Assembly (NCBI RefSeq): GCF_030866805.1
Contig: NZ_CP133019.1
Location: 2,852,001-2,916,000, forward strand
DNA: 64,000 bases
Direction: 5' to 3'
Source of the DNA: Microbacterium terrisoli
GTDB lineage: Bacteria; Actinomycetota; Actinomycetes; Actinomycetales; Microbacteriaceae
The position numbers and the translations under genes are program-made. Positions 5,136 through 6,221 of the stretch are shown here, in pieces (the stretch's first letter is position 1; every line of letters begins with the position of its first letter). The notes under the pieces were generated by a model that did no database searches, was not told the origin of the DNA, and worked only from the letters and a program-made list of their open reading frames with translations.

Positions 5136-5165
5136 TTGACTCATTGGGACGCATTCGGCAATAAT
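5136..5165 (+). promoter_or_regulatory. Sigma-70-like promoter of the Cys-rich leader and winged-helix regulator
   Basis: TTGACT at 5136-5141 and AATAAT at 5160-5165 are separated by 18 bases, close to a consensus vegetative promoter and unusually strong for this GC-rich sequence. Transcription would begin about 7 nt after the -10 box, at or next to the ATG at 5173, so the leader ORF would be translated from a leaderless mRNA. Confidence 0.65.
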
Positions 5166-5172
5166 CAGCCTC

Positions 5173-5274
5173 ATGACTCACGACACGCATTCTCTGTCCG
5201 CCTGGGAGGCGAACGGGATTTCCGGCACCATGATGCCGGCGTGTGTCGTCATGTGTTGTCGAATGTGCCGCTGA
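5173..5274 (+). CDS. Cys-rich leader peptide (33 aa), putative attenuator uORF
   Basis: A 33-codon frame starts at the ATG 7 nt after the -10 box AATAAT and ends with TGA at 5272-5274. Its C-terminus reads MMPACVVMCCRMCR: four Cys and two Arg in the last ten residues, including adjacent Cys codons just before the stop. Actinobacteria are known to use short Cys-rich leader ORFs, often leaderless, to sense cysteine through ribosome stalling upstream of sulfur-related genes. The composition, position and leaderless start fit that class. The predicted target is the winged-helix gene at 5472. The regulatory role is inferred and rests on position, composition and the downstream hairpins. Confidence 0.65.
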   Translation: MTHDTHSLSAWEANGISGTMMPACVVMCCRMCR

Positions 5275-5383
5275 ATCGGTAACCCCCGCCGGGCTCGCAC
5301 ACGTCGCTTCGCCACCTCGAAGCCGATACTGCTGGAAGCCCCCGAGCACCTCGTCGCACCCTGCGCAATGATGCCTCGCCACA

Positions 5384-5463
5384 GCGGCCTGTTCTGGCCG
5401 CGTTCAGAGCACACTCGTACCCGCCACCGGCAGACCCCGGTCCCGGGTCCTTCCGTCAAGGAC
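5384..5463 (+). promoter_or_regulatory. Hairpins ahead of the winged-helix gene, one masking its Shine-Dalgarno site
   Basis: Within the 197-base leader between the uORF stop and the gene start there is a perfect 6-bp hairpin GCGGCC/GGCCGC (5384-5401). A further 6-bp hairpin is formed by GTCCTT (5447-5452) and AAGGAC (5458-5463). The second contains the only good ribosome binding site (AAGGA) of the gene starting at 5472. A competing stem GACCC (5433-5437)/GGGTC (5445-5449) overlaps the masking stem by three bases, so the two cannot form fully together. This is the geometry of translational attenuation, although no folding energy was computed. Confidence 0.5.
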
Positions 5464-5471
5464 TACACATC

Positions 5472-6221
5472 ATGTCGAACACCGCCCTCCTCGAGCGACC
5501 CACCACGACCAGTACCACCTCGACCACGACGCGCCCCACGCTGCGCCTGGTCACCGATCGCCCCGCGCCGGCGTCGCACCCGACCACGCCGCAGCACCAG
5601 CGCAACCTGCCCCCGGGGACCACTCCCCGCGGCTTCGCCCTGTATGTCGGATTCGACGAGATCAAGGCCGCGGCATCCGGCATCTCGCTCGGCACCATCG
5701 TCGACGCGCTGCGGCGCACACTGGCAGAGGTCGCACCCGAGGCCGAGACCTATGCGACCGTCGCCCTGGCACCGCAGGGTGCCGGCGGGCGCGACGTCGA
5801 CGTGGTGCGCCTCGCGCTGCACGAGCCGAGCGCCGTGGCACGCACCAAGCCCGAGCCCGAAGAAGAGGAAGAGACCGCACCCGGTGGCGTGGTGGTCGAC
5901 ATCTCACGCAAGCGCGTCGTCATCGACGGCGAGTCAGCCGCCCTCACGTTCAAGGAGTTCGAGCTGCTGCAGTACCTCGTGCTGCGCGAAGGCCGCACCA
6001 TCGAGCGCGGCGAGCTGGTCTCGTCGCTGTGGCAGCCGGGTGCCGACAAGGACGCGCCGGGCGAGCGCACGATCGACGTGCACGTGCGGCGTCTGCGGGC
6101 CAAGCTCGGTCGCTACGAAGACGTCGTGCGCACGGTGCGCGGGGTCGGCTACCGGTTCGACCGGCACGCCGACGTCGTGATCCGCTACGGCCACGGCACT
6201 CCCTCACCCGACCGCTTCTGA
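5472..6221 (+). CDS. Winged-helix (OmpR/PhoB-type) DNA-binding protein
   Basis: A 249-residue protein with three parts. Residues 1-45 are a Thr/Ser/Pro-rich, probably disordered tail. Residues about 50-125 form an unrecognised alpha/beta region (GFALYVGFDEIKAAASGIS...). After an acidic EPEEEEET linker, residues about 140-240 form a trans_reg_C winged-helix domain with LTFKEFELLQYL, TIDVHVRRLRAKLG and VRTVRGVGYRF. No receiver domain with a phospho-acceptor Asp is present, so it is not a classical response regulator. The start at 5472 is preceded by AAGGA at 5458-5462, which lies inside a hairpin. The Cys-rich leader upstream suggests control by cysteine or sulfur supply, which would make it a candidate sulfur-responsive regulator. 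That role is inference. Confidence 0.85.
   Translation: MSNTALLERPTTTSTTSTTTRPTLRLVTDRPAPASHPTTPQHQRNLPPGTTPRGFALYVGFDEIKAAASGISLGTIVDALRRTLAEVAPEAETYATVALAPQGAGGRDVDVVRLALHEPSAVARTKPEPEEEEETAPGGVVVDISRKRVVIDGESAALTFKEFELLQYLVLREGRTIERGELVSSLWQPGADKDAPGERTIDVHVRRLRAKLGRYEDVVRTVRGVGYRFDRHADVVIRYGHGTPSPDRF

Follow-up and report, generated by a model that had tools for sequence, protein, structure and literature searches.

Why should a short reading frame loaded with cysteine and methionine codons stand directly ahead of a regulator gene that has no cysteine codon and no internal methionine codon? This question is raised by a locus in Microbacterium terrisoli, within a stretch of 64,000 nucleotides (nt) of the complete 3.63-Mb genome (NZ_CP133019.1, positions 2,852,001 to 2,916,000), which is called the window here. 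The locus lies on the + strand and carries a promoter, an upstream open reading frame (uORF) of 33 codons, a leader RNA and the gene of a winged-helix regulator. An earlier note on the window had described these elements, and its observation at the locus is real. The answer that we consider likely is that the uORF is a cysteine- or sulfur-responsive leader of a known kind, placed on a new type of target, a regulator purged of sulfur.

The promoter (5136..5165) is read directly as a -35 box TTGACT (5136-5141), an 18-nt spacer and a -10 box AATAAT (5160-5165), and the ATG of the uORF follows at 5173, seven nt past the -10 box. This is the near-consensus arrangement that the earlier note had reported. 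Between 4500 and 6500, one sigma-70-like promoter was found versus 0.1 expected; intrinsic-terminator-like sites numbered 0 in the same interval, so that no terminator with a U-run overlapping an antiterminator, as in trp-type attenuators, was found. The promoter spacing is conserved, with the -35 box located 36-38 nt before the uORF start codon in 106/110 loci (shuffled mean 1.9), and a Shine-Dalgarno (SD)-like word was found upstream of the uORF in only 3 of these 110 loci. From the position of the promoter and the rarity of SD-like words, a leaderless start is inferred; the transcript very probably begins at, or adjoining, the ATG at 5173.

The uORF (5173..5274, stop codon 5272-5274) encodes the peptide MTHDTHSLSAWEANGISGTMMPACVVMCCRMCR, in which 9 of the 33 residues are Cys or Met and the Cys codons are grouped just before the stop. 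The leaderless Cys-rich frame proposed earlier is thus confirmed. Two segments stand out. The first is a Met cluster at codons 19-21 (5227..5235), which reads ACC ATG ATG here and ATG ATG ATG in most loci; Met occupies the three positions in 51/70, 67/70 and 63/70 loci, respectively. The second is the putative sensor tail (5251..5274), ATG TGT TGT CGA ATG TGC CGC TGA, or M C C R M C R stop, with an invariant CGA at 5260-5262. Among the 70 distinct loci, L8, C28, C29, R30, M31 and C32 were unchanged and E12 was altered once. This set was collected with a pattern demanding [CS]CR.C near the stop, so that the selection itself accounts for part of the invariance of C29, R30 and C32; it does not bear on codon choice, Met31 or L8. 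The pN/pS of the uORF frame was 0.57, versus 0.84 and 1.01 in the shifted frames (87 uORFs), which indicates that the frame is under coding selection. A search of NCBIfam at an expectation value (E) of 10 with this peptide and three other leader peptides gave no match.

The enrichment of Cys near the stop is large. When one leader per genus was taken from 68 genera, the last 14 residues held a mean of 2.96 Cys, versus 0.066 expected at the 0.47% of the window, and at least two Cys were present there in 66/68 genera. The conservation of Cys codons in orthologous loci, which the earlier note had named among its own tests, is thereby found. The arrangement of these residues shifts and their number stays. 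Most genera have CCRMC; divergent genomes have tails such as MCACRMCCCC, SCACRRMCCSN, ACCRMCCC and MMCCAGGACRMCR; and a second family has CCCRMQA, with the later Cys replaced by His or Gln. A constant Cys number despite moving positions would be expected if Cys codons were selected for near the stop.

Methionine is abundant as well, and Cys and Met together make up 26% of the residues across the 70 uORFs. An alternative is that methionine, or a supply linked to S-adenosylmethionine, is sensed, with the regulatory codons being those of the Met cluster and the Met codons adjacent to Cys. Such sensing would agree with the 5 or 6 Met found within the last 16 leader residues in 47/68 genera, with Met20 in 67/70 and Met31 in 70/70 loci, and with a regulator that lacks internal Met. 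However, the Cys enrichment is large, and several divergent leaders gain runs of Cys, not of Met. We regard methionine as the main signal as improbable.

The regulator gene (5472..6221) encodes an OmpR/GlnR-type protein of 249 residues, with the winged-helix domain PF00486 (Trans_reg_C) at residues 153-229 (E 1.5e-20) and an N-terminal region without an assigned fold. No Pfam match was found outside PF00486 at a limit of E 10, at which HMMER filters drop most matches above 0.1. The absence of a receiver domain, as claimed earlier, is borne out as far as Pfam reports. The AlphaFold2 model of the regulator is poor (pLDDT 51) and too weak for the N-terminal domain. By sequence, the nearest solved DNA-binding domain is that of the GlnR structure 8hml (E 2.9e-18; 47% identity), and GlnR ranks third in a fold search with the poor model. 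The three top structure chains are presumably all GlnR; the fold search names 8hml and 8hih as such. These three matches span only query residues 134-232, so a receiver domain of the GlnR type was not found.

The regulator of the window has no Cys and no internal Met, and it is the only one of this kind among 42 gene calls of at least 150 residues (mean Cys+Met 1.95%). These 42 calls serve as the background; a Cys rate of 1.65% from flanking reading frames was discarded since it includes wrong frames. The same absence is seen in relatives. A set of 68 regulators, 37 of them from the same genus, comprises 16,571 residues, with 0 Cys and 68 Met, and each of these Met is the initiator of its protein. 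In 40 further genera, 5,684 aligned residues contain 0 Cys and 6 Met, five of which look like start codons and one of which is internal (L181). The 80 named loci, which overlap the 68-protein set, gave 1 Cys and 1 Met in 18,535 residues, with the Met next to the start. Exceptions among divergent loci of the family are one Met each in L108 and L109 and one Cys in L116; orthologues of the second family have 0-1 Cys and mostly 0-2 Met, and two of them have 4 and 6 Met. All these residue counts are not independent, owing to shared descent. Six aligned paralogue DNA-binding regions of the same genome have 1-4 Met each and no Cys either, so that this control does not discriminate for Cys alone. A near-total lack of internal Met and Cys over so many genera is hard to explain without selection, and it is read as independent evidence that the regulator acts during a shortage of sulfur amino acids. 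Sulfur sparing is known from proteins of sulfur metabolism and from others; PMC8557817, for example, discusses it for Rhodococcus proteins in sulfate starvation.

A thiol-stress circuit would account for both a Cys/Met-rich leader and a Cys/Met-free regulator. The regulator would then stay active under oxidation, and the leader or its nascent peptide would answer an oxidant, thiol stress or a metal. We know of no precedent for such a leader. The Cys codons beside the stop follow instead the arrangement of cysteine leader peptides (PMC1262725, seen in part), and we consider an oxidant circuit quite improbable.

The leader and the regulator occur together widely. The comparison drew on 30 same-genus loci (L001, L009-L037) and 80 named loci, all fetched by regulator similarity, and on a selected sample of best profile matches (L046-L088). 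The 80 named loci are the closest regulators, 73 of them labelled Microbacterium; the closest full-length relative is 86% identical, and the record of the window itself may be left out. The regulator was matched in 198/198 same-genus genomes, in 9 of them at paralogue level only (E above 1e-20), and 6 of these 9 are under 90% complete. A uORF ending in CCRMC was present in all 30 of the same-genus loci first read, and the leader precedes the regulator in 76/80 named loci by pattern and in 3 more by eye. At a loose threshold of E up to 1, the peptide profile matched 204/249 genomes of the family, with listed matches reaching about 1e-5. Of the 30 loci that scored best in this family search, 29 have the regulator after the leader, and the remaining locus ends at a contig edge. 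Altogether the leader was recovered in 68/85 sampled genera of the family; in the other 17 it was not recovered or the genus was not looked at. The record JASDDH010000010.1 (L207), titled Planococcus sp. APC 4015, holds a regulator 76% identical to that of the window and is probably a mislabelled or contaminated assembly.

At the margins of the family, 26 genomes had no or a weak leader match, and 25 of them hold a clear regulator orthologue (E of at most 1e-47). Of 20 loci fetched from these genomes, 16 carry CGA-ATG shortly before a stop codon, within a tail that has diverged; one of the 16 (L113) is doubtful, as its upstream frame has stops and no ATG. A profile search across 248 genomes of the order gave strong matches from 18, all of the same family, and outside the family no match below E 0.011. 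In the second family (f6), a tail CCRM[HQ]A was seen in 4/10 orthologue loci; the exact tail pattern matched 19/100 f6 genomes, and 19/19 hits precede a regulator orthologue (43-53% identical). These comparisons show that the association of the leader with the regulator gene is conserved.

The distance between the two elements also bears on whether the uORF may simply encode a functional small protein with no control in cis over the regulator. The selection at the peptide level would suit a small protein. However, in the 68 loci with both starts readable, the uORF always precedes this regulator, with its end 148-286 nt from the gene, and conservation of a single synonymous codon, the CGA of the tail, is not a protein trait. 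A free-standing small protein is hardly credible here.

At the nucleotide level, Arg30 is CGA in 70/70 loci, in 38/38 loci of a further codon count, in the 76/76 named loci matched and in 19/19 hits of the second family, where any CGN was allowed. CGA is a rare codon in the background, with 46/1767 Arg codons in the regulator genes. The 38-locus count left out 2/40 loci (L154 and L169), both of which read RCRMC. The invariant CGA may be a slow codon that positions the stall, or a signal at the RNA level.

This codon also speaks for the main rival explanation, a leader of the arrest-peptide or slow-codon type similar to that of whiB7. Here the end of the uORF, CGA-ATG with the preceding residues, would pause ribosomes under translation stress or in answer to another effector, and the Cys residues would be secondary. 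The conservation of the peptide beyond its Cys codons and the two genera with one Cys only (g17 and g50) would fit as well. A pause of this kind does not account for a Cys number that is kept despite changes of arrangement, among them the additional Cys of small genomes and the CCC of the second family, and it leaves the sulfur-free regulator unexplained. Although this rival is stronger than the others, we find it unlikely, and a leader that senses cysteine or sulfur is still preferred.

The RNA between the uORF and the regulator gene (5275..5471) is a C-rich leader of 197 nt. C exceeds G in 68/68 loci, with means of 42% C and 25% G; the 68 regulator genes, too, have more C than G. The SD site of the regulator, AAGGA, lies at 5458..5462, nine nt before the ATG at 5472. 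A hairpin stands just upstream of it (5417..5450), with arms GTACCCG (5417-5423) and CGGGTCC (5444-5450) and one mismatch. This hairpin was identified by stem comparison with relatives, most of which within the genus have GAACCCG/CGGGTTC or a close variant; other variants are GAGCCC/GGGCTC, GAATCCC/GGGATTC and GAATCGGG/CCCGGTTC. The best stem before the SD site beats mononucleotide shuffles in 32/37 same-genus and 20/31 other loci, and the best perfect stem of the window scores 14 versus 15.3 shuffled, that is, not above shuffles. The GACCC (5433-5437)/GGGTC (5445-5449) stem proposed earlier as a competitor is present in the window, but the stem seen in relatives is of the GAACCCG/CGGGTTC type instead. 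A second hairpin (5447..5463), GTCCTT (5447-5452)/AAGGAC (5458-5463), would cover the SD site; the 5' arm of this stem shares nucleotides with the 3' arm of the 5417-5450 hairpin. As judged by eye, the GAACCCG/CGGGTTC hairpin of many same-genus loci could alternatively pair with the SD region through its 3' arm. A scan of Rfam gave one chance hit, far below the cut-off. Also eye-catching in relatives is the complementarity of CATGATG in the uORF (5229-5235) to CATCATG at the regulator start (5468-5474).

The promoter carries repeats that may be operators. In the window, a direct repeat GACTCA-N4-GACGCA (5138..5153) spans the -35 box and the spacer and is a candidate autoregulatory site. OmpR-type proteins bind direct repeats; autoregulation is therefore plausible, and the regulator probably acts on its own promoter. 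The whole genome has one match to GACKCANNNNGACGCA, the promoter repeat of the window itself. In 12 same-genus genomes, chosen after the promoters of the genus had been inspected, the window repeat pattern gave 14 matches; 9 are the same promoter, and the remaining 5 fall within reading frames or at their beginnings, with no common gene by eye. In another genus (g80; L061, L082, L083, L085 and L087), the DNA immediately 5' of the -35 box holds three direct repeats of GTCAY, spaced 10-11 bp apart, which are likely an operator. These five genomes were chosen after their promoters had been seen, and a sixth g80 promoter (L055) has no such repeat.

The GTCAY triple repeat occurs elsewhere in the five g80 genomes in only four places. 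One genome (G338) has two triple repeats only, one at the regulator promoter and one at an O-acetylhomoserine/O-acetylserine sulfhydrylase gene. The latter repeat (1500-1525 of L197) has inverted orientation and lies at the 5' end of the gene, which runs from about 1505. The product is a bifunctional homocysteine/cysteine synthase, with TIGR01326 above the cut-off and Pfam Cys_Met_Meta_PP at E 7.6e-125. This gene is a possible first target of the regulator. It is a lead only, being a single case of four, and it does not change how probable we hold the overall reading to be.

Sulfate reduction was considered as another target. No member of PF01507, which covers PAPS reductase and the small ATP-sulfurylase subunit, was found in the genome of the window or in 16 others among the 29 same-genus genomes searched, and the control genomes were 14/14 positive. 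Sulfate reduction by PF01507 enzymes therefore cannot be the target in the genomes that lack them. No Cys-rich leader or GTCAY pair was seen upstream of PF01507 genes in 11 loci examined of 25 fetched. As an observation in its own right, many bacteria of this genus have no PF01507 protein and apparently lack the usual pathway of sulfate assimilation.

Several results weigh against a cysteine-sensing leader. The most invariant part of the uORF is CGA-ATG, not the Cys codons, and neither the amino acid nor Cys sensing requires CGA. The peptide is conserved outside the Cys codons too (L8, E12 and the Met cluster), which codon sensing alone does not need, and the genera g17 and g50 keep a single Cys in the last 14 leader residues. 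No leader was seen in 4/20 divergent family loci (L105, L114, L117 and L120), nor in 5 f7 and 5 f12 orthologue loci. The hiding of the SD site by GTCCTT/AAGGAC, proposed in the earlier note, is predicted in the window (probability unpaired 0.23), but its conservation is not clear: accessibility is not clearly below shuffles, lying under the shuffle means in 23/37 and 17/30 loci. RNAalifold on 30 same-genus leaders returned 21 pairs, one with a two-sided change, and did not recover the hairpin upstream of the SD site, probably because gaps shift its arms. A long-range pairing between CATCATCAT at the start of the regulator and the Met codons of the uORF was rejected, as true pairs beat mismatched pairs in only 38/68 loci (51/68 versus shuffles). 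The structure comparison does not demonstrate an RNA switch. On the side of the targets, the frames next to the three other GTCAY sites resemble menC, transketolase/heme O synthase and cyclo-ligase/galU, none of which has a known link to sulfur, and no sulfur regulon of the regulator is established. The attenuator interpretation of the earlier note is thus supported in part: the conserved Cys-rich leader and the sulfur-free regulator argue for a role in sulfur, while the hairpin over the SD site is not supported as a conserved element.

The proposed mechanism would run as follows. The leaderless mRNA would begin at or next to the ATG at 5173, and ribosomes would translate the 33-codon leader peptide, whose Cys codons lie just before the stop. 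A shortage of cysteinyl-tRNA, perhaps also of Met-tRNA, would stall the ribosome at the Cys codons, and this stall would change what becomes of the C-rich leader, thereby allowing synthesis of the regulator encoded downstream. The stall may free the SD site, or it may prevent Rho-dependent termination in the C-rich leader, and neither coupling is preferred. Because it is purged of Cys and internal Met, the regulator could be synthesized while sulfur amino acids are scarce, and it would probably also act on its own promoter. The comparison of loci shows conservation of the leader, the promoter spacing, the Cys number, the gene association and the sulfur-free regulator; the start of transcription, the stalling, the induction by shortage and the autoregulation are inferred.

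Cysteine leader peptides have precedent in actinobacteria, according to the parts covered of PMC1262725 and PMC4633059. By analogy, the leader appears to work like these peptides, with a different target. Of the features of the leaderless cysteine leader class, a start at or near the transcript start (from the promoter position) and clustered, conserved Cys near the stop were found; the downstream gene is not one of cysteine or sulfur metabolism, and the target is a winged-helix regulator. The polycysteine leaderless uORFs of mycobacteria (Canestrari et al. 2020, known here through the citing papers PMC9031893, PMC9094748 and PMC13236596) are likewise leaderless short ORFs with contiguous Cys codons and a regulated downstream gene. 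Set side by side by description only, they differ in that theirs precede cysteine biosynthetic or operonic genes, whereas here a single regulator follows. The leaders of Seliverstov et al. 2005 (PMC1262725), including that of cbs in B. longum, share Cys runs near the stop, the lack of a conserved hairpin or terminator, and a polyY leader, with Rho-dependent termination suggested; the Rho idea was put forward there for the mycobacterial cys leaders. Unlike the present case, their targets are biosynthetic.

Other systems are similar in single traits, as far as the parts covered of their sources go. The uORFC-8-2 motif ahead of cysS in Rhodobacterales (PMC8632094) also has two tandem Cys codons in a uORF, but it ends in an intrinsic terminator and its target is the cysteinyl-tRNA synthetase. 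In the whiB7/wblC leader (PMC13236596), a uORF controls a transcription regulator, so that a single sensor governs a regulon, and this is a precedent for a uORF that controls a regulator; it differs in its role in antibiotic resistance and translation stress and in its peptide and regulator family. GlnR (PMC10704036), the orphan OmpR-family nitrogen regulator of actinomycetes, has the nearest solved DNA-binding domain, is a nutrient regulator without a partner kinase and is autoregulated in mycobacteria. It has a receiver-type N-terminal domain, in contrast to the shorter region without a Pfam match and the added leader peptide found here. The metL leader ahead of metNIQ in Streptomyces lividans (PMC8079986) is leaderless as well, with a tail CMCRRMCAF rich in Cys and Met, but its target is a transporter. 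That leader, labelled methionine-dependent, ends with three Cys in its tail and may be the same kind of sulfur leader. A wider group of leaders was sought through the metL tail pattern and rejected, with 0/296 genomes of the taxonomic class matched.

Leifsonia xyli is a member of the Microbacteriaceae. It is among the genomes of PMC1262725, and no leader is reported for it in the parts of that paper covered. The known targets of Cys or sulfur leaders in the sources covered in part are cys operons, cbs, cysA2, cysS and metNIQ, with no regulator among them. Within the same partial coverage, no report was recognised of such a leader in Microbacterium or of an orphan OmpR sulfur regulator, and a search with the tail of the peptide brought up only four titles on unrelated subjects; overlap with the uORFs of Canestrari et al. 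is possible.

A wider picture can be drawn more tentatively, and we hold it as possible without favouring it. In two families of Actinomycetota, the regulator may do for sulfur what GlnR does for nitrogen. It would be a master regulator cleared of sulfur, and hence still able to be synthesized in starvation, that is switched on by a leader reading the supply of Cys and Met, with the slow CGA setting the pause. In species without the usual sulfate-reducing enzymes, it would command the synthesis of Cys and Met from organic sulfur, or their scavenging.

If the leader reading is true, the locus would point to a protein that may serve a large bacterial family as master regulator when sulfur amino acids are limiting, and it would explain how the regulator gene is induced by the very shortage that threatens its synthesis. 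A regulator that in dozens of genera has almost no Cys or internal Met, together with a leader loaded with both, would be a sharp and testable case of sulfur sparing. The invariant CGA raises a separate question, the role of a rare codon at a programmed stall.

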